Source of the DNA: Hydrogenophaga sp. BPS33 | GTDB lineage: Bacteria > Pseudomonadota > Gammaproteobacteria > Burkholderiales > Burkholderiaceae_C | Direction of reading: 5' to 3' | NCBI RefSeq assembly: GCF_009859475.1 | Contig: NZ_CP044549.1 | Coordinates: 5,943,501-6,007,500, forward strand | Length of the DNA stretch: 64,000 nucleotides | In this document: positions 22,822 to 54,698 of the stretch, piece by piece | Position numbering within the stretch: position 1 is the first letter of the stretch | Layout of the letters: every line of letters begins with the position of its first letter | Position numbers and translations under genes: made by a program | Notes under the pieces: generated by a model | Database searches by the model: none | Told to the model about the DNA's origin: nothing | The model's input: the letters and a program-made list of their open reading frames with translations, nothing else

Positions 22822-23061
22822 ATGAACTCTTCCGAAATGATTCGAACGTTTCTCGTTGACCGCCTGGGCGTGGAGGCCGAGCAGGTGCAACCGCACGCCC
22901 TGCTGGCCGAGCTCGGGGTGGACTCCTTGATGCTGGCCGAATTGATGTTCGAAGCCGAAGACCGCCTGGGCATCGACATCCCCTCCGACACCGAGCCCCC
23001 CAAGACCGTGGCCGACATGCAAGCTGTGATCGACGCGCTCACGGCCCTCAAGACCCCCTGA
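22822..23061 (+). CDS. Acyl carrier protein 1 of the aryl polyene operon
   Basis: A 79-residue acyl carrier protein whose phosphopantetheine attachment serine lies in the ELGVDSLMLAEL motif (about S35). This is the first gene of a plus-strand operon that runs, with tiny gaps or overlaps, to 36207. In aryl polyene/xanthomonadin synthesis, dedicated ACPs carry the aromatic starter and the growing polyene. Which of the two ACPs here does which is not decidable from sequence. The ketosynthase gene starts 3 bp after its stop. Confidence 0.9.
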   Translation: MNSSEMIRTFLVDRLGVEAEQVQPHALLAELGVDSLMLAELMFEAEDRLGIDIPSDTEPPKTVADMQAVIDALTALKTP

Positions 23062-23064
23062 TCC

Positions 23065-24336
23065 ATGCACCGCCACCACCGTGTCGCGATCACCGGCCTT
23101 GGGGTGATCAGCCCCTACGGCGGCGATGGCACCGATTTCTTCGAGCGCCTGCTGGCCGGCGAGTCGGCCGTGCGCCACCTCGCCACCGACGAGCCGCCGC
23201 GTCCGCTGTCGGTGCCGGCTGGCATCTGCCCCGAATTCGATCCCGAAACCATCCTGGGCAAACCGCTGGCGCTCATGATGGAGCGCTTCGCCCAACTGGG
23301 CACAGCAGCGGCGTTTCTCGCCTGGGAGCAGGCTGGCCTCACGCGCCGGCCGGGCGAAGGCGACGCGTCCCGCGAGCACTGGGGCTGCATCTGGGGCACC
23401 GCCCTGGGCGGCGTGGCGGCGCACGAGCGCGGCAGCCGCGAGATGTGGCTCAAGGGCCGCGAACGCGTCTCGCCGCTGTCGGTGGTGCAGGGCATGAACA
23501 ACGCGGTCAACGCGCACATCTCCATCCAGCTCGGCCTGGGCGGCGTGAGCACCAGCCACACGGCAGCGTGCGCGTCTTCGGGCATCGCCATCGGTGAAGC
23601 CTTCCGCCGGGTGCGCAGCGGCGAGGCCGCGGTCATGCTCACCGGCGGCTCCGACGTGTGCCAGTCCTACGGCGTGGTGCGCGCCTGGGAAGCCATGCGC
23701 GTCATGGCCCCGGGCGATGCGCTGACCTCCCCTTCGGCCTGCCGGCCCTTCGCCGCCGACCGCGCCGGCCTGGTGCTGGGCGAAGGCGGCGCGGCGCTGG
23801 TGCTGGAGGCCTGGGACCATGCGGTGGCCCGGGGCGCGCGCATCCACGGCGAGATCGTCGGCTTTGGCACCAGTTGCGACCACAGCCACCTCGTGCGCCC
23901 GAACCGCGAAGGCCAGGTGCGTGCCCTGCGCAGTGCACTGGCCGATGCGCAACTGGCGCCCGACGACATCCACTACGTCAACGCCCACGGCACGGCCACC
24001 GCCGAAGGCGATCCGGTGGAGATCGCCGCCCTGCGCGAGGTGTTCGGCGAGCGCGCCGTGCAACTGCCGGTGAGCGCCACCAAATCCATGCACGGCCACC
24101 TGCTGGGTGCCTGCGGCGCGGTCGAGGCGGTGGTCACCGCCATGACCTTGCGCGAGCAGGCCATTCCCCCCACCGCCCATTTGTCCGGCCGCATTGACCC
24201 GGCCTGCGAAGGGGTGGACCATGTCCTGCAGGGTCGCCGAGGCGTGCCGTTGCGCGCCGCCTTGTCGAATTCCTTTGCCTTCGGTGGCAGCAACGCCGTG
24301 CTGGCGTTTCGCGCGCCCCCCGCTTTTTCTTCCTGA
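23065..24336 (+). CDS. Beta-ketoacyl-ACP synthase (FabF-like), aryl polyene type
   Basis: A 423-residue condensing enzyme with a full catalytic triad: C169 in HTAACASSGIA, H308 in NAHGTATAEGD and H345 in KSMHGHLLGACG. It would catalyse decarboxylative condensation of malonyl-ACP with the starter or growing chain. Its position between two ACP genes is typical of aryl polyene loci, which usually hold two active ketosynthases plus a chain-length-factor-like partner; all three are found in this operon. It may be the starter-specific enzyme, since the second ketosynthase sits beside the chain-length-factor gene (inference). Confidence 0.9.
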   Translation: MHRHHRVAITGLGVISPYGGDGTDFFERLLAGESAVRHLATDEPPRPLSVPAGICPEFDPETILGKPLALMMERFAQLGTAAAFLAWEQAGLTRRPGEGDASREHWGCIWGTALGGVAAHERGSREMWLKGRERVSPLSVVQGMNNAVNAHISIQLGLGGVSTSHTAACASSGIAIGEAFRRVRSGEAAVMLTGGSDVCQSYGVVRAWEAMRVMAPGDALTSPSACRPFAADRAGLVLGEGGAALVLEAWDHAVARGARIHGEIVGFGTSCDHSHLVRPNREGQVRALRSALADAQLAPDDIHYVNAHGTATAEGDPVEIAALREVFGERAVQLPVSATKSMHGHLLGACGAVEAVVTAMTLREQAIPPTAHLSGRIDPACEGVDHVLQGRRGVPLRAALSNSFAFGGSNAVLAFRAPPAFSS

Positions 24337-24345: not shown

Positions 24346-24630
24346 ATGACTTCTGCTGCCTCTCCCGCCGACATCGACGCCCTCGTTCCAGAGGTGATCG
24401 CGCTGATCATCGAAGCCCTCAACATGGAGCTCGACGCGAGCGAGGTCGACCCCGACGGACCGCTGTACGGCGATGGCATGGGCCTGGACTCCATCGACAT
24501 GCTCGAGATCTCGCTGGTCATCTCCAAGCGCTATGGCTTCCAGATGCGCTCGGACAACGAAGACAACGAGAACATCTTCTCCTCGCCCCGCGCGCTCACC
24601 GCCTATATCGCGAGCCAGCGCACGCAGTGA
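24346..24630 (+). CDS. Acyl carrier protein 2 of the aryl polyene operon
   Basis: A 94-residue acyl carrier protein with the phosphopantetheine serine in GMGLDSIDMLEISL. It is longer and more acidic than the first ACP, with the insertion SDNEDNENIF before the last helix. It lies 9 bp after the ketosynthase gene. Aryl polyene loci commonly encode two non-redundant ACPs next to each other, as here. Confidence 0.9.
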   Translation: MTSAASPADIDALVPEVIALIIEALNMELDASEVDPDGPLYGDGMGLDSIDMLEISLVISKRYGFQMRSDNEDNENIFSSPRALTAYIASQRTQ

Positions 24631-24631: not shown

Positions 24632-25279
24632 ATGGTGGAGTCCCCGGTGCTGCGCAACTTCGGCGTGCTGCTCCTGATGGTGGCATGGGTGGTCGCAGCG
24701 CACGTGGGCAGTAACGGCTGGGGCAACATGGACTTCAACGTCGCGGTGGCGATCTCCCCCATCGCGCTGGCCGTGGTCCTGGTGTTGTGGCGCCTGCCCA
24801 AGCCCTGGCAGCGGTGGTTGGGCCTGCTGGTCCCGTGCGCCGTGCTCGTCGGGCTCTGGCCGCAGTTGCGCCACAACGTGCCCTGGCTGTACTACCTGCA
24901 ACACCTGGGCATCCACGTGGCGCTCGGCGTGTTCTTCGGCAAGACGCTGCTCGGTCCGGGCGAGGCACTCATCACCCGCATGGCGCGGCGCATCTTCACC
25001 GAACCCCTTTCCGCGCGCAACGTGCGCTACACGCGCGGCGCCACCGTGGCCTGGACGCTGTTCTTCTTCGGCAACGCGCTGGTCTCTACCGCGCTGTTCA
25101 TCTGGGCACCCCTTGACGTGTGGTCCTGGCACGCCAACGTGCTCACCGGACCCCTCATGGGCTTGATGTTCCTGGGCGAGTACATCTGCCGCATGATCCT
25201 GCTGCCCCCGAACGAGCGGCCCGGCCTGTCGGACGTGGTGAAGGCCTACAAGCGCGAGTCGGCGCAGCGCGGAGGGTAG
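24632..25279 (+). CDS. Aryl-polyene-cluster membrane protein (COG4648-like)
   Basis: A 215-residue integral membrane protein with about six hydrophobic segments (for example NFGVLLLMVAWVVAAHV and LYYLQHLGIHVALGVFFGKT). It resembles the uncharacterised membrane protein that regularly follows the ACPs in aryl polyene clusters (COG4648). Its molecular role is unknown; a part in export or in anchoring the synthase complex is a guess. The ATG at 24632 lies 1 bp after the ACP2 stop and gives the expected length; the longer open frame overlaps ACP2. The AMP-ligase gene follows 7 bp later. Confidence 0.8.
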   Translation: MVESPVLRNFGVLLLMVAWVVAAHVGSNGWGNMDFNVAVAISPIALAVVLVLWRLPKPWQRWLGLLVPCAVLVGLWPQLRHNVPWLYYLQHLGIHVALGVFFGKTLLGPGEALITRMARRIFTEPLSARNVRYTRGATVAWTLFFFGNALVSTALFIWAPLDVWSWHANVLTGPLMGLMFLGEYICRMILLPPNERPGLSDVVKAYKRESAQRGG

Positions 25280-25286: not shown

Positions 25287-26636
25287 GTGAGCCGATCTGC
25301 TCTCCTCAGCCGCCACGCGCTGGACGACGTGTTCGCCTGGCGCGCGCACGGCCCGATCACCGTACGGACCTTCCTGGCCGAAGCGCACGCGCTCGCCGAG
25401 CGGCTGCCACCGGGCGACTGGCTGCTCAACATGTGCGAGGACCGCTACCACTTCGCGGTCGGTTTCGCCGCCGGCCTGCTGGCGGGCAAGGTCAGCCTGC
25501 AACCCTCGTCGCAGTCGGCCGACACCTTGCAGCACCTGGCGCTCGAACATCCCGGCGTGGCCTGGCTCGGCGATCGGCCCGACACGGTGCCCGGCATGCC
25601 CGGGCTGGTGTTCCCCGACCTGGCGGCGCTGCCACGCCCGGCCGACGCGGCGATGCCCCAGATTCACAATGAGCGCCTGGTGGCCATCTTGTTCACCTCC
25701 GGCTCCACCGGCGCGCCGCAGCCGCACCGCAAGACCTGGGGCAAGCTGGTGCTCAACGGGCAGGCCGAGGCCCAGGCGCTGGGATTGCTCGATCGAGCCC
25801 AGGCCATCGTGGGCACGGTGCCCGCGCAGCACAGCTACGGTTTCGAATCCACCTTTCTGCTCGCCCTGCACGGCGGTTGCAGCTTCTTTGCCGGCAAGCC
25901 GTTCTACCCGCAGGACATCGTGTCCGCGCTGCAAGCCGTACCGCGTCCGCGCATGCTGGTGACCACGCCCTACCACCTCTCGGCGCTGCTGGCGTCGGAA
26001 CTGGCCGTGCCGCCGCTGGACCTCATCCTCTCCGCCACCGCGCCGCTGAGCACCGACCTGGCCCGCCGCGCCGAAGCGCACTGCGGCGCTCCGGTGCACG
26101 AGATCTACGGCTCCACCGAATCGTCCGCGCTCGCCTGCCGCCGCACGCTCGACGGCGCGCACTGGCGGCTCATGGGGCGGGCGCGGCTCGAACAGGAAGG
26201 CGACACCACCTACGCATGCGACGGGCATGTGGAGCGGCGCGTGCCGCTGGCCGACATCATCGAGTGCTTCGACAACGGCCGCTTCGTGCTGCACGGCCGC
26301 CACGCCGATTTGGTCAACATCGCCGGCAAGCGCACCTCGCTGGCCTACCTCAACCACCAGATCGCGGCGGTGCCCGGCGTGGTCGATGCGGCCTTCTTCC
26401 TGCCCGACGAGGCCGACGCGCAGGACGGCATCGTGCGCCTCACCGCCTTCGTGGTCGCGCCCACGCGGGACGCCCACGCGCTCATGGCCGAACTGCGCCA
26501 GCGGCTGGATCCGATCTTCCTGCCGCGCCCGCTGGTGTTCGTGGACACGTTGCCGCGCAACGACACCGGCAAGCTCCTGCGCGCCACGCTGCAGATGCTC
26601 TACGCCGACCAGGTGAAGCCCCATGGACGCGGCTGA
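25287..26636 (+). CDS. AMP-forming aryl-acid:ACP ligase (acyl-CoA synthetase family)
   Basis: A 449-residue ANL-superfamily enzyme. The phosphate loop is FTSGSTGAPQPHRKTW near residue 136, the adenine motif is EIYGSTESSALAC, and the C-terminal catalytic lysine is in LPRNDTGKLLR. It is shorter than typical acyl-CoA ligases, as are the ligases of aryl polyene clusters, which activate 4-hydroxybenzoate, 3-hydroxybenzoate or coumarate-type acids and load them onto an ACP. The predicted hydroxybenzoate source is the chorismatase at 52357. It begins with GTG and overlaps the next gene by 14 bp. Confidence 0.88.
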   Translation: MSRSALLSRHALDDVFAWRAHGPITVRTFLAEAHALAERLPPGDWLLNMCEDRYHFAVGFAAGLLAGKVSLQPSSQSADTLQHLALEHPGVAWLGDRPDTVPGMPGLVFPDLAALPRPADAAMPQIHNERLVAILFTSGSTGAPQPHRKTWGKLVLNGQAEAQALGLLDRAQAIVGTVPAQHSYGFESTFLLALHGGCSFFAGKPFYPQDIVSALQAVPRPRMLVTTPYHLSALLASELAVPPLDLILSATAPLSTDLARRAEAHCGAPVHEIYGSTESSALACRRTLDGAHWRLMGRARLEQEGDTTYACDGHVERRVPLADIIECFDNGRFVLHGRHADLVNIAGKRTSLAYLNHQIAAVPGVVDAAFFLPDEADAQDGIVRLTAFVVAPTRDAHALMAELRQRLDPIFLPRPLVFVDTLPRNDTGKLLRATLQMLYADQVKPHGRG

Positions 26637-26934
26637 ATTCACCTGGGCCGTGCCGGCCGACCACCCGGCCTTCGCCGGCCATTTCCCGTCGCGCCCGATC
26701 GTACCCGGCGTGGTGCTGCTGGACCAGGCGATCCTGTTCGCGCAGAAGATGCGCGGCGCAGCCGACGCCACCGGCTGGCGGATCGCCCAGGCCAAGTTCT
26801 TCGTGCCGATCGGGCCGTCCCAGGTGCTGCGCTTTGCCTTGCACACCACGCCACGCGGCGCGATCGCCTTTGCCGTCACCTGCGACGAGCGCGAGGTGGC
26901 CGCCGGCAGCCTGCTGCCCACGCCTGCCCCATGA
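26623..26934 (+). CDS. 3-hydroxyacyl-ACP dehydratase, short hotdog (ApeI-like)
   Basis: A 103-residue single hotdog domain of the FabZ/FabA type. The catalytic block is HPAFAGHFPSRPIVPGVVLL, with H20 as the likely active-site base. It is much shorter than FabZ, as the ApeI-type dehydratases of aryl polyene clusters are. It would remove water from 3-hydroxyacyl-ACP to form the polyene double bonds, possibly with the second dehydratase at 35027. The start overlaps the ligase by 14 bp and the stop overlaps the acyltransferase gene by 4 bp (26931-26934), indicating tight coupling. Confidence 0.87.
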   Translation: MDAAEFTWAVPADHPAFAGHFPSRPIVPGVVLLDQAILFAQKMRGAADATGWRIAQAKFFVPIGPSQVLRFALHTTPRGAIAFAVTCDEREVAAGSLLPTPAP

Positions 26935-27836
26935 GCCGCGCAATCCCACCCGACTGGATGCGCCAGGAAGAACGCAGCCACCTCGGCGTGCTGCGCTTCA
27001 TGGTGTGGATCTCCCTGCGCCTGGGCCGGCCCATCGGGCGGCTGGTGCTGCGCTTCATCGCGCTGTACTACGTGGTGTTCTCGCCCAAGGCGCGGCGCAC
27101 CGGCCGCGTGTACCTGCGGCGGGCCCTCGGGCGCGAGCCCACCTGGGCCGACGCCTACCGCCACGTCATGCACTTCTCTAGCACGGTGCACGACCGCGTG
27201 TACCTGCTCAACGACCGTTTCGACCTGTTCGATATCGAGCTGGTGGGCCATGAAGCCGTGCAGGCCGCGCTCGCGCGCCAACCGGGCGCGCTGCTGTACG
27301 GCGCGCACATGGGCAGCTTCGAGGTGCTGCGCGCCATGGCCCATGGGCACGCCCACGAGCCCGTGGCCATGCTGATGTACGAGGACAACGCGCGCAAGAT
27401 CAACGCCATCCTGCACGCCATCAACCCGCAGGCCCACCAGGACGTGATTCCCCTGGGCCATCCCGACTCGATGCTCAAGGCGCGCGACCGGCTCGACGCC
27501 GGCTCGCTGGTGGGTTTGCTCGCCGACCGCTCGCTGGCCCACGACAGCACGGCAGAATGCCGGTTTCTGGGCGAACCGGCACCGTTCCCCATCGGTCCCT
27601 GGCGCATGGCGGCCATGCTGCGCCGACCGGTGTTCTTCATGGCCGGCCTGTACCTGGGCGGCAACCGGTATCGGCTGCATTTCGAACCCCTGGCCGACTT
27701 CTCCACCGTGGAGCGCGGCGAGCGCGACGCGGCCATTGCCCAGGCCATGCAAGCCTACGCCGACCGCCTGAGCCACTACTGCCGACGGGCGCCGTTCAAC
27801 TGGTTCAACTTCTTCGACTTCTGGCACCGCACATGA
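26931..27836 (+). CDS. LpxL/HtrB-like lysophospholipid acyltransferase
   Basis: A 301-residue inner-membrane-associated acyltransferase. An N-terminal hydrophobic segment (LRFIALYYVVF) is followed by the active-site HX4E motif in GAHMGSFEVLRA and the substrate-pocket stretch LADRSLAHD. Homologues in lipid A synthesis add an acyl chain from ACP. In aryl polyene loci such an enzyme is thought to transfer the polyene acyl group to its lipid carrier. The start overlaps the dehydratase gene (4 bp) and the stop overlaps the LolA-like gene (ATGA), so it belongs firmly to the operon. Confidence 0.88.
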   Translation: MSRAIPPDWMRQEERSHLGVLRFMVWISLRLGRPIGRLVLRFIALYYVVFSPKARRTGRVYLRRALGREPTWADAYRHVMHFSSTVHDRVYLLNDRFDLFDIELVGHEAVQAALARQPGALLYGAHMGSFEVLRAMAHGHAHEPVAMLMYEDNARKINAILHAINPQAHQDVIPLGHPDSMLKARDRLDAGSLVGLLADRSLAHDSTAECRFLGEPAPFPIGPWRMAAMLRRPVFFMAGLYLGGNRYRLHFEPLADFSTVERGERDAAIAQAMQAYADRLSHYCRRAPFNWFNFFDFWHRT

Positions 27837-28402
27837 TCCGACGACTCCTCACTGGCCTGCTGCTGGGCGCCTTCGCGGCGGTGGCGCACGCCGCCTTCGA
27901 CCTCAACCAGCTCATGGCCGAACTCGCGCGCAACCCGGGCGGCAACGCCACGTTCGTCGAGAAGCGCTACCTCGCCCTGCTCGACAAGCCCGTGGTCGCC
28001 TCGGGTGAGATGAGCTACCGCGCGCCCGACTGGCTGCAAAAGCGCACGCTCAAGCCCAGGCCCGAAACCGTGACCCTCAACCGGGACACGCTGAGCCTGG
28101 AGCGTGAGCGCCGCACCATGACCATCAACCTGCGCCAGCGCCCCGAAGTCGCGGCCTTCGTCGACAGTGTGCGCAGCACGCTCTCGGGCGACCGCGCGGC
28201 GCTGGACCGCCACTACAAGCTCAGCCTCGCCGGCACACGCGATGCGTGGACGCTTACCCTGGTGCCCAGCGAACCCAAGATCCTGGAACTGCTGCAGCGC
28301 ATCACCGTCGCGGGCGTGCGCGAGCAGGTCTTGAAGATCGACTACCTGCAGGCCGACGGCGACCGCACCGAGATGACGATCGCTCCGGTGAAGAACCCAT
28401 GA
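27833..28402 (+). CDS. Outer-membrane lipoprotein carrier (LolA-like) protein
   Basis: A 189-residue secreted protein with a signal peptide (RRLLTGLLLGAFAAVAHA, cleavage near residue 21). The mature part begins FDLNQLMAELARNPGGNATF, with FVEKRYLALLDKPVVASGEM, the LolA-type opening of the half-barrel. LolA-like proteins ferry lipids through the periplasm. In aryl polyene clusters this protein and the MMPL exporter are the presumed route of the lipid-linked pigment to the outer membrane. It overlaps both neighbours by 4 bp. Confidence 0.87.
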   Translation: MIRRLLTGLLLGAFAAVAHAAFDLNQLMAELARNPGGNATFVEKRYLALLDKPVVASGEMSYRAPDWLQKRTLKPRPETVTLNRDTLSLERERRTMTINLRQRPEVAAFVDSVRSTLSGDRAALDRHYKLSLAGTRDAWTLTLVPSEPKILELLQRITVAGVREQVLKIDYLQADGDRTEMTIAPVKNP

Positions 28403-30738
28403 ACCGCGGTTTCTGGCGCGCCCTGCTGATCTGGTTGGCAGCCATGGGCTGCGGCGTGGTGCTGCTTCTGGACACCCGCTTCTCGGCCGACGTCTCCTTC
28501 TTCCTGCCTTCCAAGCCCACGCCCGAACAGCAGGTGATGGTGGACCAGTTGCGCGAAGGGGCCGTCTCGCGCCTGTTGATGCTGGCCATTGCGGGTGGCA
28601 CGCCCGAGCAGCGCGCGGATGCCTCGCGCGCCTTGCGCGCGGCGCTGGCGAAGGACCCGTCGCTGGAGACGGTGCAAAACGGCGAAGCCGAGGCGCTGGA
28701 GACGGTGCGCGACTTCATGCTCGACCACCGCTACCAGCTGAGCAACGCGGTCACCCCCGAGCGCTTCAGCGTGGAGGGCCTGCGCGATGCCGTCCTCCAA
28801 AGCGTGGACATGCTCAGTTCCTCGGCGGGCCTGCTGTTCAAGCCCTTTCTTGCGCGCGACCCCACCGGCGAACTGATCGAACTCGTCTCCGGCCTGAACG
28901 CCGGCGTGCAACCCAACGAGCGTGAAGGCGTGTGGGCCTCGCGCGATGGCGAACGCGCCATGCTGATCGCACAGACCCGCGCACTCGGCTCCGACACCGA
29001 CGGCCAGGCCGCGGTCATCGGTCTGATCCGCGGCACGTTCGACCAGATCGCCGCGCAAGACGGCATGAACGGCCTGAGCCTGCAAATGTCCGGCCCGGGC
29101 CTGTTCGCGGTGCGCGCGCGCGCGACGATCCAGGAAGAAGTGGCGCGGCTCTCGCTCATGAGCACGGCCATCCTCGCGGTCATGCTCGGCTTCGTGTACC
29201 GGCGCGGGCGCCTCATGCTGCTCACGCTGGTGCCCGTGCTCAGTGGCACCCTGGCCGCCATCGTCACCGTGGGCGTGGTGCACGGCACGGTGTTCGGCAT
29301 CACGGTGGGCTTTGGCGCGGCACTCATCGGGGAGGCGGTGGACTACGCCATCTACTATTTCGTGCAATCGGGTCGGCAGGGCGCGACGTCCTGGCGCGAG
29401 CAGTACTGGCCCACGATCCGCCTGGGCGTGATGACCTCGGTGCTGGGCTTTGGCGCGCTGCTGTTTTCCGGCTTTCCAGGACTGGCACAGCTGGGCCTGT
29501 ACGCCATCAGCGGCGTCCTGGCGGCCGCGCTGGTCACCCGCTACCTGTTGCCGGACCTGGCAGGCCCCGGCGTGCACCTGGCCGACGGCGCGCGCCAGGG
29601 CCGCGTGCTGCGCCCGCTGGTGGCACACGCGCACGTGCTGCGCTGGCCCCTGCTCGCGCTCGTGCTGGTGGCCGGCGTGTACCTCGCGCAGCACCGCGAA
29701 CAGCTCTGGAAATCCGACCTCTCCGCGTTGTCCACCGTGACGCAGGAAGAAGGCGAACTCGACGCGCACCTGCGCGCCGACCTGGGTGCTCCCGATGCGC
29801 GCTACATGGCCGTCATCACCGCCCCCGACCGAGAGAGCGCGCTGCAAGCCGCCGAACGCGCGGGGGCGGCCTTGCGCCCGCTGGTGGACCAGGGCCTCAT
29901 CGGCGGCTTCGACACGCCCGCGCGCTTCCTGCCCAGCGAAGCCGCGCAAGCCGCGCGCCGCGCCAGCCTGCCCACACCGGAGGAACTCGAGCAGCGCCTG
30001 CGCCAGGCCCTGGTCGATGCGCCGCTCTCGGCCGATCGGCTGCAGCCGTTTCTGGACGACGTGAAAGCCGCGCGCAACGCACCCCCGCTCACGCGCGCCG
30101 ACCTCGATGGCATCGGCCTGGGCCTCGCGGTCGACGCCCTCTTGCTGCAGCGGCCCAGCGGCTGGAGCGTGCTGCTGCCGCTGCGCCCACCGGCCGCATC
30201 GGAGAATGCCGAGCTGCCGGTGGACGCGGTGCGCGCGGCGCTGGCCGGCACCGGCGCGCTGTTCATCGATCTCAAGGGCGAGTTCGACACGCTCTATGGC
30301 GAGTACATCGACGAAGCCATCGTGCTCTCGCTGGCCGGCTTCATCGCCATCACCGTGGTGCTGGGCTTCGTATTGCGCAGCCCCATGCGCTTGCTGGGCG
30401 TGATGCTGCCGCTGGTGATGGCCGTGATGGTCGTCGTCGCCGGCCTGCACATGGCCGGCGTGCGCCTGCACCTGTTGCACCTGGTGGGCCTGCTGCTCAC
30501 CGTGGCCGTGGGCTCGAACTACACCTTGTTCTTCGACCGCCTCGCGGTGGGCGAACCGCTGGACGACGAGACCCTGCTGTCCATCGGTGTGGCCAGCTTC
30601 ACCACCGCCGTGGGCTTCGGCGTTCTGGCATGGTCCTCCGTCCCGGTGCTGCACGCGATCGGCATCACCGTAGGCCCGGGCGCCGTGCTCGCACTCATCC
30701 TGTCCGCGGCCTTCGCCGTGCGACAGCGCAGTGCATGA
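28399..30738 (+). CDS. MMPL-family (RND-like) exporter
   Basis: A 779-residue inner-membrane exporter with two repeats, each having one membrane helix, a periplasmic domain and about five further helices. The first repeat includes MLGFVYRRGRLMLLTLVPVL and FGAALIGEAVDYAIYYF; the second has VVLGFVLRSPMRLLGVMLPL and LTVAVGSNYTLFF. Asp and Tyr residues of the proton-relay segments are visible. It most likely exports the finished lipid-linked aryl polyene, with the LolA-like protein as periplasmic acceptor (inference from cluster context). The stop overlaps the hydrolase start by 4 bp. Confidence 0.9.
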   Translation: MNRGFWRALLIWLAAMGCGVVLLLDTRFSADVSFFLPSKPTPEQQVMVDQLREGAVSRLLMLAIAGGTPEQRADASRALRAALAKDPSLETVQNGEAEALETVRDFMLDHRYQLSNAVTPERFSVEGLRDAVLQSVDMLSSSAGLLFKPFLARDPTGELIELVSGLNAGVQPNEREGVWASRDGERAMLIAQTRALGSDTDGQAAVIGLIRGTFDQIAAQDGMNGLSLQMSGPGLFAVRARATIQEEVARLSLMSTAILAVMLGFVYRRGRLMLLTLVPVLSGTLAAIVTVGVVHGTVFGITVGFGAALIGEAVDYAIYYFVQSGRQGATSWREQYWPTIRLGVMTSVLGFGALLFSGFPGLAQLGLYAISGVLAAALVTRYLLPDLAGPGVHLADGARQGRVLRPLVAHAHVLRWPLLALVLVAGVYLAQHREQLWKSDLSALSTVTQEEGELDAHLRADLGAPDARYMAVITAPDRESALQAAERAGAALRPLVDQGLIGGFDTPARFLPSEAAQAARRASLPTPEELEQRLRQALVDAPLSADRLQPFLDDVKAARNAPPLTRADLDGIGLGLAVDALLLQRPSGWSVLLPLRPPAASENAELPVDAVRAALAGTGALFIDLKGEFDTLYGEYIDEAIVLSLAGFIAITVVLGFVLRSPMRLLGVMLPLVMAVMVVVAGLHMAGVRLHLLHLVGLLLTVAVGSNYTLFFDRLAVGEPLDDETLLSIGVASFTTAVGFGVLAWSSVPVLHAIGITVGPGAVLALILSAAFAVRQRSA

Positions 30739-31379: not shown

Positions 31380-31380
31380 C

Positions 31381-45825: not shown

Positions 45826-45882
45826 GCGGAAGTCCTTCGCGGGTCGGCTGCTGTGCAGGCAGTTTCCGACCAAGACTGCGCA

Positions 45883-45894: not shown

Positions 45895-46054
45895 AGATTG
45901 AAAACGAGTGATGCTGTGGGTGCATCAATGACAGGACCCGTCATCGAGAGCTTGAGCAACACAACAGCGGCCCCTTCATTTATTGCAAACCGTGGATCAA
46001 TGCATCCCAACAATGCAATTCACAGAATGCCTGGCGTTTTCGAGAATGCGGGCC

Positions 46055-48115: not shown

Positions 48116-49312
48116 ATGCGAAACCTTCCAGCCCCCAGAACGCTCTTGGCCCACCGCTCTCCTGTTGCTGCGTCGGCGTGCGGCGGCACACGTGCTCTCA
48201 CACCACCGCACGCGTTGCTGCTGCTGTACGGCCTTGCCGCTGCGGCGCCCGCCCTGGCGCAAACCGAGGCACCCCCCACGCTGGAACAATGCGCCGCCAT
48301 CGGCGCGGCGGCAGACCGCCTGACGTGTTACGACAAGCTGGCCGGCCGGGCACCAGCGCCAACCACCCCCGTGGCGCAGCAGGCGCTTGCGAGCACCGCC
48401 ACGCCGGCCACGGCCGAGCCCTCGCTGCTTTCGCAAACCGGCGGACCTCTGCCGCCGGACAGCACGTCCGCCTCGGCATCGGCTTCCTCGAGCAGCCTCA
48501 CCTCCAAGTTCTGGGAGCTCGATCCGATCGACAAACGCGGCGTGTTCAACTTCGTGGGCTACCAACCCAACTACGTGCTACCGCTGCACGTGACCTCGCG
48601 CATCAACCGCGCGCCGCAGTCACCGACGCAGGCCGCCGTGGCGCAGCCCGACAACCGCCGCGAGGAAGCGAAGTTCCAGCTGTCGCTGCGCACCAAGGTG
48701 CTGCAGAACGTGGGCCTGCCGGGCGGAGATTTGTGGGCGGCCTTCACGGTGCAGGCGATGTGGCAGGTCTACAGCCATTCCGATTCGCGGCCGTTTCGCA
48801 ACACCGACTACCAACCCGAGCTGATCTATGTGGTGCCCACGGCCGAGCGTTTTCGGGGCCTGCCGTTCGGCTGGAAGTGGCGGTACACGCAGTTGGGCGT
48901 GGCGCACCAGTCCAATGGGCAATCCGACCCGCTCTCGCGCAGCTGGAACCGCAGTTACCTCGACGCCGGTTTCGAGAACGGCAACTGGACCTTCTCGGCG
49001 CGCGTCAACCACCGCCTGCGCGAGCGCGCGGAAACCAACAACAACCCCGACCTGGTCGACATGCGCGGGCGCACCGAGCTCAACCTGGGCTGGGCCAGCG
49101 GCCTGCACACGGCGTCGCTACACCACCGCACCACCTTCCGTGGCGGCAACAAGGGCTCCAACCTGTTCGAATGGACCTACCCGGTCTCGCGCGACCAACC
49201 CAACGGCTTGCGCTGGTACGTGCAGGTGTTCAGCGGCTACGGTGAGACGCTGTCGGACTACAACTTCCGCCAGACCAGTGTGGGGGCGGGGGTTAGTTTC
49301 CTGCAGTTCTGA
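48116..49312 (+). CDS. pldA: Outer membrane phospholipase A1 (OMPLA)
   Basis: A 398-residue outer-membrane beta-barrel enzyme. The signal segment is around residues 32-49 (ALLLLYGLAAAAPALAQ). A low-complexity Ser/Ala/Pro region (about 80-130) precedes the barrel, which starts near FVGYQPNYVLPL. The catalytic residues H264, S266 and N278 lie in GVAHQSNGQSDPLSRSWNRS with the same spacing as E. coli H142, S144 and N156. The chain ends in Phe, the outer-membrane insertion signal. It hydrolyses phospholipids that reach the outer leaflet. The N-terminus is unusually long; an internal start is possible but none is better. Confidence 0.93.
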   Translation: MRNLPAPRTLLAHRSPVAASACGGTRALTPPHALLLLYGLAAAAPALAQTEAPPTLEQCAAIGAAADRLTCYDKLAGRAPAPTTPVAQQALASTATPATAEPSLLSQTGGPLPPDSTSASASASSSSLTSKFWELDPIDKRGVFNFVGYQPNYVLPLHVTSRINRAPQSPTQAAVAQPDNRREEAKFQLSLRTKVLQNVGLPGGDLWAAFTVQAMWQVYSHSDSRPFRNTDYQPELIYVVPTAERFRGLPFGWKWRYTQLGVAHQSNGQSDPLSRSWNRSYLDAGFENGNWTFSARVNHRLRERAETNNNPDLVDMRGRTELNLGWASGLHTASLHHRTTFRGGNKGSNLFEWTYPVSRDQPNGLRWYVQVFSGYGETLSDYNFRQTSVGAGVSFLQF

Positions 49313-49360
49313 TGTCTTTTTTTCGCCGGCTGACACGGTCTGCGGCGACCGGGGTGCCCG

Positions 49361-49548
49361 GCTCCGCGGGTGTCCCCCGGACCGGCTTCGCCGGTCCTCC
49401 TCCTTTACCCCGCTGCGCCGGACACCCCGATCACCGCAGACCTATCGGCGTGCTGCCTTGCCTTGCCTTGGCTCGCGGACGTGGGGTGTTCTGCGCAGCG
49501 GGGTAAAGGAGGAGCCGCCCTCCCGGCGGCGGGGGACACCCGCGGAGC
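49361..49548. repeat. Compound inverted repeat between convergent genes
   Basis: Outer arms 49361-49378 and 49531-49548 are perfect reverse complements (18 bp, GCTCCGCGGGTGTCCCCC). Inner arms 49398-49418 and 49493-49513 are perfect over 21 bp. Between them each side has a different self-complementary hairpin: 49379-49397 (GGACCGGC-TTC-GCCGGTCC) and 49514-49530 (GCCGCC-CTCCC-GGCGGC). A further stem joins 49471-49487 with 49553-49570 (one mismatch). This fills the 297-bp gap between pldA and the antiporter gene. No gene was recognised inside. It may terminate transcription from both sides. Confidence 0.8.
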
Positions 49549-49609: not shown

Positions 49610-50788
49610 TCACTTGAAGCGGCGCAGCTTCGGGTCGACCACCGGCACCGTCAACATCGTGCTGGCCACCGCCATCAACAGCAGCGCGGTAAAGGTCTCG
49701 CTGGTGATGATGTGTTTGTCCAGCAGCACGTTGGCGAAGATGATCATGATCAGGGCCTTGGTCTGCAGCAGCCAGCCGATGATGGACGCCTGACCTGCCG
49801 GCCATTGCAGAATGCGGCCCGCCGCGTGCACGCCCAGCAGCTTGCCGCTGACCGAGGCCACCAGCAGCAGCGCGGCCATGCCGAACACCGCCGCGCCGCC
49901 CAGGTCCCAGTTGGTGCGCAGGCCGGTCGAGAGAAAGAACACCGGCATGACCACCAGCAGCACGTGGTGGCGCAGCAGGTCTAGCTGGACCTGATCGAAC
50001 CACTCCGTATCCATCACCACACCGGCCAGAAAAGCGCCCACCATGTAGTGCAGACCCGACCAGTCGGCACCGAAAGCGCACACGGCGAGCCAGATCAGGC
50101 TCACAGCCCAGCGGTCTGAGGCGCGCAGGCGTTGCATGAGACCGCGAAAGCCCCACGACAACACCGCGAACGCCAGCAGGAAGAACACCTGTCGCCCGAC
50201 ACGCTCCCAGTCCATCAGGATCAGCGCCAGCACACCCCAGATAGCGATGTCGTCCAGGCTGGCGTAGCGCAGGATGCGTTGGCCCAGCGGCTGTCGCAGC
50301 AGCTGCAGTTTCTCCATCAAGAGAATGAGGATGGGCAAGGCGGTCACCGCGCACGCCATGCCCACGCCCGCCACGAACTGCCAGGGCCGCGCGGCCGCGC
50401 CCATCCACCCCGGCATGTTCAACATGACCAGCGCAGCGACGCTGCCCAGCACCAGCGGCATGCCCAGCGCGAGCCCGGCCGTGATGCCGCTCTCGCGCCG
50501 GTGCTTCCACGCCTGGCGCAGGTCGAGCTCGATGCCGGCGATCATCACGAACAGCATCACCGCCCACCAGGCAATGCCGTTGAGCGACTGGATCACCGCA
50601 GGGTTGAAGACGAATTGGTGGAACTCGGGAAAGGCCTTGCCCAGCACGCCCGGCCCGAGCAGGATGCCGGTGACGATCTGCACCACCACCAGTGGCGCCC
50701 AGTAGTCGGTGCGCCCCACGCGCCAGATCAACCAGGGCACGGTGAAGATGATCGCCATGGCGATCAGGAAAATCTCGGTGGTGTTCAC
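49610..50788 (-). CDS. CPA2-family cation:proton antiporter
   Basis: A 392-residue inner-membrane protein with about 12 membrane segments of the Kef/NapA type. Family segments include VTGILLGPGVLGKAFPEF, VMLFVMIAGIELDL and FAVLSWGF. It lacks the RCK/TrkA-N regulatory domain of full Kef proteins. It is the last gene of the minus-strand operon with the glycosyltransferase (6-bp gap), acyltransferase, chorismatase and halogenase. Exchange of Na+ or K+ for H+ is the family function; why it is tied to pigment genes is not clear. Confidence 0.87.
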   Translation of the reverse strand: MNTTEIFLIAMAIIFTVPWLIWRVGRTDYWAPLVVVQIVTGILLGPGVLGKAFPEFHQFVFNPAVIQSLNGIAWWAVMLFVMIAGIELDLRQAWKHRRESGITAGLALGMPLVLGSVAALVMLNMPGWMGAAARPWQFVAGVGMACAVTALPILILLMEKLQLLRQPLGQRILRYASLDDIAIWGVLALILMDWERVGRQVFFLLAFAVLSWGFRGLMQRLRASDRWAVSLIWLAVCAFGADWSGLHYMVGAFLAGVVMDTEWFDQVQLDLLRHHVLLVVMPVFFLSTGLRTNWDLGGAAVFGMAALLLVASVSGKLLGVHAAGRILQWPAGQASIIGWLLQTKALIMIIFANVLLDKHIITSETFTALLLMAVASTMLTVPVVDPKLRRFK

Positions 50789-50794: not shown

Positions 50795-51559
50795 TTAACG
50801 CCGTCCCACAAGCCGACGCCACAGCAGCAGCGGCAAGCGCAGCACAAAACCCGTGAACAGCCGCGTGTGCATGCCGCTGAGCAGCAGGTTGTCGCGCACG
50901 TAGTTGAAGTGCGAAACACCGCCCTCTTCCGGCGTGAAGTAGCGCACCGGCGCGTCGATGTTGATCGGCCGCACGCCGGCCCAGCACAGGCGCACCACGG
51001 CTTCGGGGTCGAAGTCGAAGCGGCGCATGAAGCGCGTGCCTTGCATCACGCGCACGAGCGGCGCGATGGGGTACACGCGGAATCCGTACAACGAGTCGCC
51101 GATGCCCATGCCCAGGGTTTCCAGGTTGGCCCAGCCGTTGGAGAGCTTGCGCCCCATCACGCGCACCCAGGGCGCCTCGGGGCCGAACACCGGTTTGCCC
51201 AGCACCATCGCACCGGGCTGGGCTTGCGAGGCGGCCATGAAAGCCGGGATCAGCGTCTCGGGGTGTTGGCCATCGGAGTCCATGGTGAGCGCGTGCGTGA
51301 AGCCGGCTTGCGCGGCCAGCGTGATGCCGTGCAGCACGGCCGAGCCCTTGCCCTGGTTCTGCGGCAACACGATCACGCGCAGCCCGGGGTCGCCCTCGGC
51401 CATCTCGGCGAGCCATTGGGCCGAACCGTCGGTGCTGCCGTCGACCACCACCCACACCGGCGTCCATTGCGCGCGAGCAGCGCGCACCGTCTGCAGCACC
51501 TTGCGGCCCGGGTTGTAGCTGGGGATGAGGACCAGGTGCGAGGTGCTGGATGCGGGCAT
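50795..51559 (-). CDS. Family 2 glycosyltransferase
   Basis: A 254-residue GT-A fold glycosyltransferase. The nucleotide-sugar motifs are LVLIPSYNPG, VVVDGSTDGS, GKGSAVLHGI and the DXD in TMDSDGQHPETL, with GIGDSLYGFRVYP as the acceptor-side motif. Glycosyltransferases of this type are regular members of aryl polyene/xanthomonadin loci, where they may glycosylate the lipid anchor or pigment. It lies 3 bp after the acyltransferase and 6 bp before the antiporter in one operon. The sugar and acceptor are unknown. Confidence 0.88.
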   Translation of the reverse strand: MPASSTSHLVLIPSYNPGRKVLQTVRAARAQWTPVWVVVDGSTDGSAQWLAEMAEGDPGLRVIVLPQNQGKGSAVLHGITLAAQAGFTHALTMDSDGQHPETLIPAFMAASQAQPGAMVLGKPVFGPEAPWVRVMGRKLSNGWANLETLGMGIGDSLYGFRVYPIAPLVRVMQGTRFMRRFDFDPEAVVRLCWAGVRPINIDAPVRYFTPEEGGVSHFNYVRDNLLLSGMHTRLFTGFVLRLPLLLWRRLVGRR

Positions 51560-51562: not shown

Positions 51563-52360
51563 TCAGGCAGCGGCGGTCGAAGCCAACGGTGGGACTGAGG
51601 CAGCGAGTTCGGCCCGGAAGTAGGCTTCGAGCTCGTGGGTGAAGGCACGCGAATCGCGCGGCGCCTCGAAGCGCTTGCCCAGGCGCACGCGGCAGGTCAG
51701 CGGCAGGCGGGGTTTGCGCCACAAGGGCCAGCCCTTGCCCAGGTAAGGGCTGGAAAACTCGACCAGCAAGGTCTGCACCGGCACCTCGGCACGCGCGGCG
51801 ATCAATGCGGTGGAGCGCGACAAGGCGTTGAGCCGATTGGCCGGGTAGCCCAGTGTGCGCGTGCCTTCCGGAAAGATCACCAGCTGCGCGCCGTCCGCAA
51901 GTTCGCGGCGGCACGCCAGCACCGCGCTGAGCAGGTGGTCGTTGCGCACGTAGCGCGCCATGCGCGCGCCCGCGCCGAACAAGGGGTTGTCCATGATGTC
52001 GGCCTTCATGAAGCAGACCGCGTTCGGCAGGCGCGAGGTGATCAGCACCGCGTCCAGCAACGAGGGATGGTTGGCGGCGATCACCATCGGCCCCTGGTCA
52101 CGGAGTTGGTCGATCTCGGCGAGGTCGAAGCGGCACGCGCAGACCGTGCGCAGAATGCCCACGTAGATCCGAAAGCCGCGCATGATGGCCTGGCGGCCGA
52201 GCCAGCGGCCGATGCCGTTGGGCAAGACCGGGTACAGCGCCAGTGCCAAGGGCGTCCACGTCAGGCACACCAGGGCCAGCGAGGACAGGCCGAGCACCAT
52301 GGCGATGTGTTCGTACACGCCCCAGAGCCGCGAGGTGGGAGAGCGCTGCGCGGCGTTCAT
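51563..52360 (-). CDS. PlsC-type 1-acylglycerol-3-phosphate acyltransferase family protein
   Basis: A 265-residue membrane-associated acyltransferase. A hydrophobic N-terminal helix (HIAMVLGLSSLALVCLTW) is followed by the HX4D motif in AANHPSLLDAVLI and the glycerol-phosphate motif FPEGTRTLGYP. Such enzymes occur in aryl polyene and xanthomonadin loci and are thought to place the polyene acyl chain on a glycerol-type lipid. The start overlaps the chorismatase stop (ATGA). It provides, outside the main operon, a second acyltransferase besides the LpxL-like one at 26931. Confidence 0.88.
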   Translation of the reverse strand: MNAAQRSPTSRLWGVYEHIAMVLGLSSLALVCLTWTPLALALYPVLPNGIGRWLGRQAIMRGFRIYVGILRTVCACRFDLAEIDQLRDQGPMVIAANHPSLLDAVLITSRLPNAVCFMKADIMDNPLFGAGARMARYVRNDHLLSAVLACRRELADGAQLVIFPEGTRTLGYPANRLNALSRSTALIAARAEVPVQTLLVEFSSPYLGKGWPLWRKPRLPLTCRVRLGKRFEAPRDSRAFTHELEAYFRAELAASVPPLASTAAA

Positions 52361-53364
52361 GGAGAGGGCAGCGCGTGGATCGCCTGCGACTCGATTTCCA
52401 CCAGCAGATCGGCGCGGCACACGTCGGCCTGCACGGCCACCACGTCCGCATCGCCCAGCAGCGGCTGGAGCGCGCGTTGCACGGTGTGAATGTCGCCGGC
52501 ATGGCGCACGTAGATGCGGTGGCTCAGCGCCCGCACCGAAAACGGCTGGGCCGAACGCGCCAGGCGGTTGGCCTCCCGCACGACGGATTCCAGGTTGCGC
52601 ACGGTCTCTCGGCACTGCGCCGCCACGTCGTCGGTGTGCAGTGTTTCGTGGCCGACGATGCTGGCCGTGCCGGAAATGAACAGCACTTCCTGCCCGGGCG
52701 GGTACACCAGCGCCGCGCGCGAGAACGTGGGGGCGCGCGGACCGTACTGCGGCGGGTAGGCCCAGGCGCTCACCTGGCGCGGGTTCTCCACCGTCACCAC
52801 GGGCGACGCGCCAGCCAGGAAGGCCACCGAGAGCGGGCCTTCGCGCACACCGAGCGCGCACGCCGCCGGCACCTGGCCACCGGTTTCCTGGCGCGCCTTC
52901 ACGAAGGCGTCGTAGCGGCCGAGGTTGAACTGGCGGTAGCGCTCCAGGCCGTGGCTGTCTTCGTTGATGCGCGCGATGTAGTTCCAGACGCGCCAGAGGT
53001 GCGGAAGCCGCTGTTCGCGCAGCAGGCAAAAGAGGCGCTCGTACAGCATCCGGCTGGTCGCTTGCAGCGGTGGCACGCCGGGCTGCGTCGGGTCCTCGGC
53101 TTCATCCAGTTCGATGACACCGTAGAGCAGGTGCTGGTTGCGGCGCCAGCGAATGCCGTGGTCCGTGCCTTGTTGCAGGGGGCCGTGCGCAAGCCAGCAT
53201 TCGCGCAGCGTGGTCTCGCCCGGGGAGAGCATGGGCGTTTGCAGGTGTTGCTGCGGCCAGGTGACCGCGTCCGTGCCATGGGGCGTGCCAATGAGCACGC
53301 CCCCGATTTCTTGTCCAGTGGCGCGGCCAGGGGCCGTTCGCCAGGTCTCATGTTGCAAAGTCAC
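52357..53364 (-). CDS. xanB2: XanB2/FkbO-like chorismatase (hydroxybenzoate-forming)
   Basis: A 335-residue protein of the chorismatase family (FkbO/Hyg5/XanB2). In Xanthomonas the XanB2 type converts chorismate to 3- and 4-hydroxybenzoate, the aromatic starter of xanthomonadin and a ubiquinone precursor. Recognisable blocks are LLYGVIELDEAEDPTQPGVP, LPHLWRVWNYIARINEDSHG, ERYRQFNLGRYDAF, PAACALGV and LVYPPGQEVLFISGTASIVG, the last being the YjgF/RidA-like region that causes mislabelling as pteridine-dependent deoxygenase. It begins with GTG overlapping the halogenase stop by 4 bp. It would supply the acid for the AMP ligase at 25287. Which isomer it makes cannot be read from sequence. Confidence 0.83.
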   Translation of the reverse strand: MTLQHETWRTAPGRATGQEIGGVLIGTPHGTDAVTWPQQHLQTPMLSPGETTLRECWLAHGPLQQGTDHGIRWRRNQHLLYGVIELDEAEDPTQPGVPPLQATSRMLYERLFCLLREQRLPHLWRVWNYIARINEDSHGLERYRQFNLGRYDAFVKARQETGGQVPAACALGVREGPLSVAFLAGASPVVTVENPRQVSAWAYPPQYGPRAPTFSRAALVYPPGQEVLFISGTASIVGHETLHTDDVAAQCRETVRNLESVVREANRLARSAQPFSVRALSHRIYVRHAGDIHTVQRALQPLLGDADVVAVQADVCRADLLVEIESQAIHALPSP

Positions 53365-54698
53365 GTGGGATGGGCTTGTGCGGCCTCGTCGGCCGGTCGG
53401 ATGTTGGTGCGGCGGCTGCGCCAGGCGGCGAACGCGCGCCGCGGTTGGGTGACGTTGGCCAGGAAGTACATGGTCTTGAAGATGAACAGCGAACGCCCGA
53501 TCGGTGCGCCACCATACACGTCGCCGGCCAAGGTGGAGAGCAGCGCTTCCTTGACGCGGAAATAGTTGCGCGGCCCCATGAAGAAGTCGCGCATGATGGG
53601 ATTGGTCACGCGGTAGATGAACCACGAGAACGCCTTGGGGCCATGGCGGCTCTGGCGGTCGAATCGCTTGAGCGCGGCGCGCGCCCGAGACGGATGGCGC
53701 AAACAGGTGTCGATGGTTTCCGCGCCCAGCTCGCCACCGATCATGGCCAGCCACACGCCCGAGGAGAACACCGGATCGATGAAGGTGTAGGCGTCGCCCA
53801 GCATCAGGTAGTTCTCGCCGTGGTTGCGCTCGGCGGCGTAGGAGAAGTTGCCGGTGGCTTCCACCGGGCTGACCAGGGTGGCGTCTTTCAGCCGCTCGGC
53901 CAGGCCCGCGCAGGTCGCGATGTTGTCCATCAGGAACTGCTGCACGCTGCGGCCGTTGCGCGTTTTCATGTGGTACGGCCAGGTCACCATGCCGACGCTG
54001 GTGGCGCCATCGGTGAGCGGGATGAACCAGAACCAGCCGTGGTCGAACCAGAAGATGGTGATGTTGCCTTCGGCCGTGCCTTCGTTGCGGCGGGCATTGG
54101 CGAAGTGGCCGTACACCGCCGCGCTGGTGTGGCTCGGGTTGCGTTTCTTGATCTTGAAACGGGAGGCAAGAAATGTGTCGCGCCCGGAAGCGTCGACGAG
54201 AAACTTCGCGTCCCACACCACCTCGCGGCCATCGTCGTACCGGGCTTGCACGCGCACCGTGCGGTCGGGCAGAAACTCCACCGAGCGCGCCTGGCAGCCT
54301 TCGTGCACGTCGGCACCCTGGCGCTGGGCGTTGCGCACCAGGATTTCGTCGAACTCGGAACGCCGCACCTGGTAGGCATAGGGCATGGATTTGTCCCACG
54401 CGTCGGCGAAGTCGAACACTTGTTTGTGGGCGTGGTGCGGCGAGACGAACTCGGCGCCCGGCTTGTACTGCCCGATGGCGCGCACCTCGTCGGCCACGCC
54501 CAGGCGTTCGAGCAGCGGCAGGTTGGCCGGCAGCAGCGATTCGCCGATGTGGAAACGCGGATGGTGCTCCTTGTCGAGCAGCACGACACGGTGGCCTTTT
54601 CGGGCCAGCATGGGCGCAATCGTGGAGCCGGCAGGCCCTGCGCCGATCACGAGAACGTCACAGCTGCGGCGTTCGACTCCCTGGTGTTGTTCGTTCAT
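53361..54698 (-). CDS. FAD-dependent halogenase-like oxidoreductase
   Basis: A 445-residue flavoprotein of the flavin-dependent halogenase family. The FAD motif is GAGPAGS (19-25), HIGESLLPANLPLLERLG is typical, and the candidate catalytic lysine is K79 in GQYKPGAEFVS. The halogenase hallmark WXWXIP appears as WFWFIP (222-227) and FIDPVFSSG matches the halide-channel motif. Xanthomonadins are brominated and their loci carry a related enzyme, so halogenation of the aryl head is likely, though some relatives in aryl polyene clusters may only oxidise. It is first in the operon with the chorismatase, acyltransferase, glycosyltransferase and antiporter. Confidence 0.82.
   Translation of the reverse strand: MNEQHQGVERRSCDVLVIGAGPAGSTIAPMLARKGHRVVLLDKEHHPRFHIGESLLPANLPLLERLGVADEVRAIGQYKPGAEFVSPHHAHKQVFDFADAWDKSMPYAYQVRRSEFDEILVRNAQRQGADVHEGCQARSVEFLPDRTVRVQARYDDGREVVWDAKFLVDASGRDTFLASRFKIKKRNPSHTSAAVYGHFANARRNEGTAEGNITIFWFDHGWFWFIPLTDGATSVGMVTWPYHMKTRNGRSVQQFLMDNIATCAGLAERLKDATLVSPVEATGNFSYAAERNHGENYLMLGDAYTFIDPVFSSGVWLAMIGGELGAETIDTCLRHPSRARAALKRFDRQSRHGPKAFSWFIYRVTNPIMRDFFMGPRNYFRVKEALLSTLAGDVYGGAPIGRSLFIFKTMYFLANVTQPRRAFAAWRSRRTNIRPADEAAQAHPT

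Follow-up and report, generated by a model that had tools for sequence, protein, structure and literature searches.

Analysis of a 64,000-nucleotide stretch of the genome of Hydrogenophaga sp. BPS33 (hereafter the window) indicated that it very probably encodes one xanthomonadin-type aryl polyene pathway in two operons with an old tail-to-tail arrangement, whose junction received insertions and whose split is likely neutral. Judging from the protein families and from Azoarcus, the chorismatase would supply 3-hydroxybenzoate, which the AMP ligase would load onto an acyl carrier protein (ACP). The ketosynthases, chain-length-factor (CLF)-like protein, reductase, and dehydratases would then build the polyene, methyltransferase and halogenase would decorate the ring, and the acyltransferases, glycosyltransferase (GT), LolA, and MMPL proteins would serve attachment and export.

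Gene content and regulation of the two operons

Operon A (22822-36207, plus strand) comprised 16 genes, A1-A16:

22584..22653, +, operon A promoter region: CTAMTGTACGNCAC-type element at 22584-22599, TTTGTATAATCC -10-like box at 22642-22653
22822..23061, +, A1, acyl carrier protein (PF00550)
23065..24336, +, A2, FabF-like ketosynthase (PF00109/PF02801; TIGR03150 below cut-off)
24346..24630, +, A3, acyl carrier protein, arcV position (PF00550)
24632..25279, +, A4, membrane protein, arcU position (no Pfam match; order as in Azoarcus)
25287..26636, +, A5, AMP ligase, arcT position (PF00501/PF13193)
26623..26934, +, A6, ApeI-like dehydratase (PF22818, PF07977)
26931..27836, +, A7, LpxL-type acyltransferase (PF03279)
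27833..28402, +, A8, LolA-like carrier (PF19574, LolA_3)
28396..30738, +, A9, MMPL exporter (PF03176)
30735..31379, +, A10, alpha/beta hydrolase, arcO position (PF12697)
31378..32187, +, A11, polysaccharide deacetylase family (PF01522)
32184..32906, +, A12, SAM methyltransferase (PF13649 and others)
32960..34150, +, A13, ketosynthase (PF00109/PF02801)
34120..35019, +, A14, ketosynthase-like, chain-length-factor type (PF13723)
35027..35491, +, A15, putative second dehydratase, arcI position (position; weak FabA/FabZ match)
35488..36207, +, A16, SDR ketoreductase, last gene of operon A (PF00106)

The core synthase and export set that the earlier note had placed in this operon was borne out by family matches, including a type II ketosynthase/CLF pair with ACP, reductase, and dehydratases (Pfam), the second dehydratase being assigned by position only. 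The naming of A15 as a dehydratase follows its arcI position, since no Pfam model matched it at 1e-3 and its best PDB match, a FabA/FabZ protein, was weak (E 0.052). A5 probably activates the aryl starter acid. During annotation, the gene models 24473-25279, 27557-28402, 28246-30738, 30731-31237, 31228-32187, 37110-38084, 39427-40134, and 45007-45888 were dropped for starting too early or for lying in the wrong frame or strand.

Operon B (49610-54698, minus strand) consisted of genes B1-B5, the antiporter included:

53361..54698, -, B1, flavin-dependent halogenase-like enzyme, arcA position (PF04820, Trp_halogenase, above cut-off; carries WFWFIP)
52357..53232, -, B2, chorismatase, arcB/XanB2-like, FkbO/Hyg5-type (PF21168; TIGR04444 below cut-off; active-site residues)
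51563..52360, -, B3, PlsC-type acyltransferase, arcD position (PF01553)
50795..51559, -, B4, GT2 glycosyltransferase, arcE position (PF00535)
49610..50788, -, B5, Na+/H+ antiporter, arcG position, last gene of operon B (PF00999)

The halogenase, chorismatase, PlsC acyltransferase, and GT previously proposed for a minus-strand operon were all recovered by family matches. The minus-strand unit reaching to 54698 stood, while its other limit had to be moved from 50795 to 49610, because B5 was assigned to operon B: 6 bp separate the antiporter and GT genes, and in 21/29 linked relatives the antiporter lay on the same side of the junction as the GT, not being found in the remaining 8/29. B1, in which the WFWFIP motif is present, is predicted to act as a halogenase. 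This gene was not universal: none was found in the stretch of genome G204, and G151 gave only a 147-base match.

In the alignment of B2 (290 aa), Gly187, Cys271, and Glu278 agreed with chain 5ag3, whereas FkbO has Ala, Ala, and Glu at these positions, making B2 a probable 3-hydroxybenzoate synthase. The chorismatase gene was unlinked to the pigment locus in part of the genus, lying 2.5-4.2 Mb away in G153, G155, G173, and G188 (in linear contig coordinates) and on a separate contig in further members. A comparison with UbiC (PF04345) was based on the idea that the chorismatase may serve ubiquinone too. Among 60 genomes searched, UbiC was absent from BPS33 itself and from all 34 chorismatase-positive genomes, and it was present in 6 of the 26 chorismatase-negative ones; 20 genomes showed neither gene.

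A separate promoter-like box stood at the outer 5' end of each operon. Upstream of operon A, TATAAT occurred in 9/9 of the upstream sequences shown and the CTAMTGTACGNCAC-type element, judged by eye, in 8/9 (G177 being without it); within the window, each of these promoter elements was a single exact match. One simple k-mer test of 12 and 14 upstream regions yielded no regulatory motif shared by the two operons, as did its control of ten shuffles, and the Rfam search of 20000-56000 gave no family at or above its gathering score.

The intervening block and the junction in relatives

The two operons were separated by 13.4 kb with the following content:

36217..40175, cassette I: DHDPS-family enzyme, enolase-superfamily (MR_MLE) enzyme, TctC receptor, GntR/FCD regulator
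40217..48068, cassette II: TctC, LysR, lyase, CoA transferase III, MaoC-like protein, PrpF::TctC fusion
48116..49312, +, phospholipase A1 gene (PF02253)
49340..49545 (approximate limits), palindromic repeat element, whose 21-mer had 17 matches in the genome

What had been described as a single block of acid-catabolism genes does hold catabolic genes, but it is not one insertion: these genes form two discrete cassettes, and a phospholipase A1 gene and the repeat element lie beside them. Cassette I was found whole at another locus of Hydrogenophaga genome G203 (36221-40174 of the window matched) and cassette II at another locus of G159 (40217-48068 matched). In the sister genome G186 (Hydrogenophaga sp. 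2FB), cassette I was colinear at the same junction and cassette II was absent from it, homology breaking at 36210/36217, at 40175, and at about 48210. Close matches (94-100%) to the cassette I MR_MLE protein occurred in only 3/60 genomes, namely BPS33, G186, and G203. The phospholipase gene also lay between the operons in G186, G159, and G151 and probably occupied the junction before the cassettes did. Cassette I would then have entered in the common ancestor of BPS33 and 2FB, with cassette II either gained in the BPS33 lineage or lost in 2FB. No transposase or integrase families were detected among the open reading frames scanned in the block (36.2-49.3 kb), and the sole tRNA of the window, at 60097, lay away from the block borders.

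Wherever a single contig carried both ends (29 relatives), the operons were convergent and in the same order (29/29). Eleven relatives had gaps of 3-59 bp between the operons, seven of 203-992 bp, three of 1171-1446 bp, and eight of 3.1-21.3 kb, so that the gap was below 1 kb in 18/29 and below 100 bp in 11/29. Operons were directly joined in G160, G177, and G180, of the same clade as BPS33; the other relatives with gaps of 3-59 bp were G170, G176, G187, G195, and G204, and G150, G154, and G189. In G176, which is H. intermedia, the spacing was 32 bp. The undivided state that the earlier note expected from a comparison of synteny was thereby found, in keeping with insertion between once-joined operons. 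Junctions above 2 kb (8/29) contained different cargo among those examined. Unlike the junction, spacers within the operons, which served as the control for junction growth, were seldom enlarged. Since the junction is bordered by nothing but operon 3' ends, insertions there would leave each operon its own promoter, which may explain why they are tolerated and why the split is likely neutral for the pathway.

A probable single pathway and its alternatives

Two operons with different products, A making an unhalogenated aryl polyene and B an unrelated modification, with accidental vicinity, would be compatible with the 13.4 kb between them and with the unlinked chorismatase. We considered this very unlikely, because across the 60 genus genomes (BPS33 included) the AMP ligase and the GT occurred together in 33, the ligase only in 2, the GT only in none, and neither in 25, the two ligase-only genomes being 59% and 67% complete. 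The unbroken convergent order in the linked relatives, found also in 40/41 fetched loci with both GT and SDR (8/41 from Hydrogenophaga), and the colourless mutants published for both Azoarcus loci argue against it as well. For ligase and chorismatase, the corresponding numbers were 33 both, 2 ligase only, 1 chorismatase only, and 24 neither. Relatives with a single operon, which would have spoken against the one pathway proposed earlier, were sought in a stricter subset of 26 ligase-positive genomes (at least 90% complete, at most 5% contaminated, BPS33 included); none was found, the partial exception being G207 and G150, ligase-positive and without a chorismatase match.

That the inserted genes belong to the pathway, for example by supplying a building block or head group, also appeared highly improbable. 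Some encouragement comes from G153 and G155, whose junction carries a FabH-like gene (in G155 also an ABC-2 transporter gene), a set that by our reading resembles dialkylresorcinol genes and could modify the pigment. The FabH-like protein of G155, taken as DarB-type, was present in 2/60 genomes and, used as query, gave no match at 1e-20 in the BPS33 genome. Against such a role in BPS33, both cassettes come with regulator and TctC receptor genes of their own, and the MR_MLE protein of cassette I is confined to 3/60 genomes as opposed to 35/60 for the ligase.

Least probable of all was an ancestral split followed by later joining in relatives, which the likewise split Azoarcus pathway might suggest. 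Against it, the Azoarcus break lies elsewhere (beyond arcK/L, not at arcG/arcH), gaps of 3-59 bp occur in the BPS33 clade and in others, Dechloromonas, Azonexus, Thauera, and other loci share the convergent order, and the cassettes occur elsewhere as units.

The locus was compared with three related systems. In Xanthomonas, the xanthomonadin (pig/xan) genes form a single cluster. Compared by published description, it has an enzyme set in common with the locus described here, including chorismatase, acyltransferase, ketoreductase, dehydratase, ketosynthase, and CLF-like protein (PMC3949708). In Azoarcus sp. BH72, the arc genes for arcuflavin (arcA-arcV) form two unlinked loci, and a mutant in either is colourless, so that a two-locus pathway with the same gene set was already known (PMC3949708). 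Both operons were colinear with arcA-arcV and of the same families, in a first part (halogenase, chorismatase, PlsC, GT, antiporter, SDR, dehydratase, ketosynthase-like protein, ketosynthase) and a second part (methyltransferase, deacetylase, an unnamed position, exporter, LolA, acyltransferase, dehydratase, ligase, an unnamed position, ACP), with the Hydrogenophaga break at arcG/arcH. The Azoarcus list also names MipA-like, ArgC-like, arcL, and two-component genes; these did not lie within the two operons described here. For Hydrogenophaga sp. SL48, an antiSMASH arylpolyene region was reported with Xanthomonadin I named among similar known clusters (PMC12993520); in G173, taken for comparison, the operons are 992 bp apart and the chorismatase gene lies 4.2 Mb from them in the coordinates of the record.

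Implications for Hydrogenophaga

The pathway is, as far as its genes tell, of a known type, with two unrelated acid-using gene sets having landed between the operons and neither operon broken. The two cassettes, the antiporter in operon B, the unlinked chorismatase, and the published two-locus split had been missed in the earlier note. It is possible, if rather less than probable, that metabolic cassettes dock repeatedly at this junction in Hydrogenophaga and perhaps other betaproteobacteria. Operons kept intact by selection would then shelter foreign cargo where their 3' ends meet, and part of that cargo, such as the dialkylresorcinol-like set in G153/G155, may join the pathway.

Some Hydrogenophaga species are yellow, a colour formerly labelled carotenoid. 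In BPS33, no TIGR02734 (CrtI) match exceeded the cut-off of 238.1 bits, the best reaching 43.4; one of two SQS_PSY genes was directly followed by a weak CrtI-type FAD match, an arrangement reminiscent of the hopanoid set. Our results suggest an aryl polyene as a possible source of the yellow in some Hydrogenophaga species; this cannot hold genus-wide because the ligase is absent in 25/60 genomes. The joined state and those with one gene, one cassette, and two cassettes, together with the other cargo of other lineages, provide stepwise snapshots of a locus splitting without gene loss, and software for detecting gene clusters may divide such a pathway or assign the catabolic cargo to it.

Convergent arrangement of the two operons

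Operons A and B of the 6.77 Mb source genome (G000; the window spans bases 5943501–6007500 of contig 1) very probably form a single xanthomonadin-type aryl polyene pathway in an old tail-to-tail arrangement, a grade kept slightly lower because halogenase and antiporter genes are missing in some relatives. Genus genomes and fetched loci carry G and L numbers.

22822–36207, plus strand: operon A (A1–A16; membrane protein A4, AMP ligase A5, KS/KS-like pair A13/A14, terminal SDR gene A16)
36221–40174: cassette I (DHDPS-family, MR_MLE, TctC, GntR/FCD)
40217–48068: cassette II (TctC, LysR, lyase, CoA transferase III, MaoC-like, PrpF::TctC)
48116–49312: phospholipase A1 gene
49610–54698, minus strand: operon B (antiporter 49610–50788, glycosyltransferase (GT) 50795–51559, PlsC 51563–52360, chorismatase 52357–53232, halogenase 53361–54698)

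Pfam searches confirmed the gene content claimed for both operons in the earlier note. Its placing of operon B at 50795–54698 held for the genes themselves, but the limit moves to 49610, the antiporter gene lying 6 bp from the GT gene. Ahead of operon A (22584–22822), a conserved TGTACG-type element, a −10-like box and a leader of ~170 nt were similar across the majority of 8 relatives compared; an Rfam search of this region gave no match.

Of the 34 ligase-positive relatives, all but G168 and G190 contributed a stretch to the comparison, and in 29 of these 32 the SDR and GT genes shared a contig. They were on separate contigs in G194 and G196, and the G152 stretch, from a rearranged locus, contained no SDR gene. 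The undivided state sought among relatives was recovered: all 29 linked relatives were convergent, with GT 3′ of SDR. Between SDR and the closest gene of operon B (the antiporter, or GT where no antiporter was found), approximate distances from tblastn ends were 3–59 bp in 11, 203–992 bp in 7, 1171–1446 bp in 3 and 3.1–21.3 kb in 8. The antiporter was not found in eight linked relatives (G170, G172, G176, G181, G187, G195, G204, G207). Among named loci around the best 80 of 576 chorismatase relatives, 41 had both GT and SDR in the flank (8 from Hydrogenophaga, some also among the 29), and 40 of these were convergent in the same order, the exception being Herminiimonas (L153); neither PlsC nor GT lay within the flank in 17 of the 80, some on short contigs.

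Co-occurrence, probable relocation and possible loss

Co-occurrence was scored in 60 genus genomes, own included. The ligase was present in 35 (E ≤1.2e-100; a partial 39% match in G185 was scored absent, as was a chorismatase match in G200 at E 5e-4). Ligase and chorismatase occurred together in 33 genomes, ligase alone in 2 (G150, G207), chorismatase alone in 1 (G205, 62% complete) and neither in 24. With GT scored at 1e-40, both were found in 33, ligase alone in 2 (G168 and G190, 59% and 67% complete), GT alone in 0 and neither in 25. Both patterns are clear, though kinship makes p-values too small.

Members of the genus around H. flava and H. pseudoflava carry the chorismatase gene away from the pigment locus; in L121 its neighbours encode D-Tyr-tRNA deacylase, YbeY and PhoH. 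In these members an ORF, taken as a MipA-like arcC, occupies the place between halogenase and PlsC (slot sequences from G152, G188 and G189). Relocation is likelier than replacement, since the relocated chorismatases, G189 excepted, group with the copies that in G152 and G196 sit inside the cluster (gene tree, support 0.946). In G207, halogenase and PlsC are ~58 bp apart (L167:3809–5942) and no chorismatase match was found anywhere in the genome, perhaps a natural deletion. H. palleronii (G151) has only a 147-base halogenase match (L060:6162–6308) beside an otherwise complete operon B and may represent a natural halogenase loss; halogenase was also not found in the G204 stretch. At the halogenase end of operon B, and outside it, L169, L171, L174 and L178 (G175, G203, G194, G169) carry an A4-like membrane gene and a second KS/KS-like pair (34–51% identity to A13/A14).

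Comparison with Azoarcus and chorismatase chemistry

According to PMC3949708, Azoarcus sp. BH72 has the same gene families split over two loci that are not linked; each locus was hit by one insertion, in arcK or in arcT, and both mutants were colourless. Since arcK encodes a ketosynthase, the halogenase, chorismatase, PlsC and GT genes themselves were not those disrupted in the mutants described there. Read from arcA to arcV, the Hydrogenophaga gene order is colinear with that of Azoarcus, but the break falls at arcG/arcH in the present genome rather than beyond arcK/L. An arylpolyene region similar to Xanthomonadin I is described for Hydrogenophaga sp. SL48 in PMC12993520; the literature seen in part on Hydrogenophaga arylpolyene/xanthomonadin yielded no description of the junction (the stretch between the 3′ ends of the operons) or its cargo.

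Chorismatase Gly187, Cys271 and Glu278 (290-aa query numbering) were invariant across 18 aligned sequences. They match chain 5ag3 (PDB title: putative pteridine-dependent dioxygenase), which we take to be Hyg5; FkbO (4bps) carries Ala, Ala and Glu at these sites. The residue comparison covered these three sites and set the query against 5ag3 and 4bps. PMC7170507 gives Gly-164, Gly-231, Cys-318 and the active Glu-325 as the 3-HBA-type marks of Nat-hyg5. The residues thus favour 3-HBA as the predicted product. PMC3949708 gives both 3-HBA and 4-HBA as ArcB products and cautions that an alignment by itself does not settle which product is made. UbiC (PF04345) was present in 6 of the 60 genomes, never together with chorismatase, and 20 had neither. 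The pathway product, its halogenation and its head group are putative.

Junction gaps and their cargo

Gaps >2 kb were counted at the junction and between neighbouring gene pairs within operons A and B only. They occurred in 8 of 29 junctions vs. 8 of 446 operon A pairs (5 further pairs, on different contigs, left out), six of the latter tracing to distant A4 matches (three genomes) and the other two to G152, whose locus is rearranged. Operon B gave 0 among 83 pairs when chorismatase was disregarded and 7 among 98 when it was included, all seven from chorismatase relocation; the second count omits 9 pairs split between contigs. In a FastTree phylogeny from seven locus proteins, large gaps placed by eye were spread over several branches: G000/G186, G172, G207, G153/G155 and G169/G175/G203. 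The junction may be a spot that tolerates insertions. The 13.9 kb G172 junction holds an IstB gene next to one of integrase type, a pairing like that of IS21, together with LysR, NMT1-like and sensor kinase genes; in G180, beside it in the tree, the junction is 29 bp. That of G175 (H. flava) holds AcrB-family and FGGY kinase genes. The G153/G155 junction (9 kb; lower GC3 in G155) contains a FabH-like gene, confined to these two of the 60 genomes, and in G155 (L175:1328–10568) an ABC-2 transporter gene, possibly a dialkylresorcinol set inside the pigment locus.

Homology to the sister genome G186 (Hydrogenophaga sp. 2FB) ends at 36210, restarts at 36217 (cassette I), ends at 40175 and restarts at ~48210 near the phospholipase gene; the G186 junction therefore carries the phospholipase gene and cassette I but lacks cassette II. 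A palindromic repeat element lies between the phospholipase and antiporter genes (49340–49545) and is absent from the short G186 spacer; its 21-mer matches the genome at 17 places with ≤2 mismatches, against 0 for the reversed control, and four times these matches form inverted pairs spaced 97–120 bp.

Cassette II is complete at a different locus in G159 (84–85% nucleotide identity in two blocks, proteins 83–97%), whose own junction holds the phospholipase gene alone and whose position next to G000/G186 has low support (0.108, FastTree). Transfer is less clear for this cassette than for cassette I, because its identity does not plainly exceed the values for the G159 operons. A single 695 aa ORF (45983–48070) fuses a PrpF-family protein to a TctC-type receptor domain, an odd joining of an enzyme to a periplasmic-type receptor; the fusion is retained in G159 (88% identity over 695 aa), making sequencing error unlikely. 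Cassette I is complete at a different locus in G203 (83% nucleotide identity, proteins 85–95%), and its MR_MLE protein has matches of at least 94% in only G000, G186 and G203 of the 60 genomes, the lesser ones being 52% (G171) and 45% (G167). As operon A and B proteins of G203 are only 45–81% identical to ours, this suggests that cassette I spread horizontally. The gene families present suggest sugar-acid catabolism for cassette I and catabolism of di- or tricarboxylates for cassette II.
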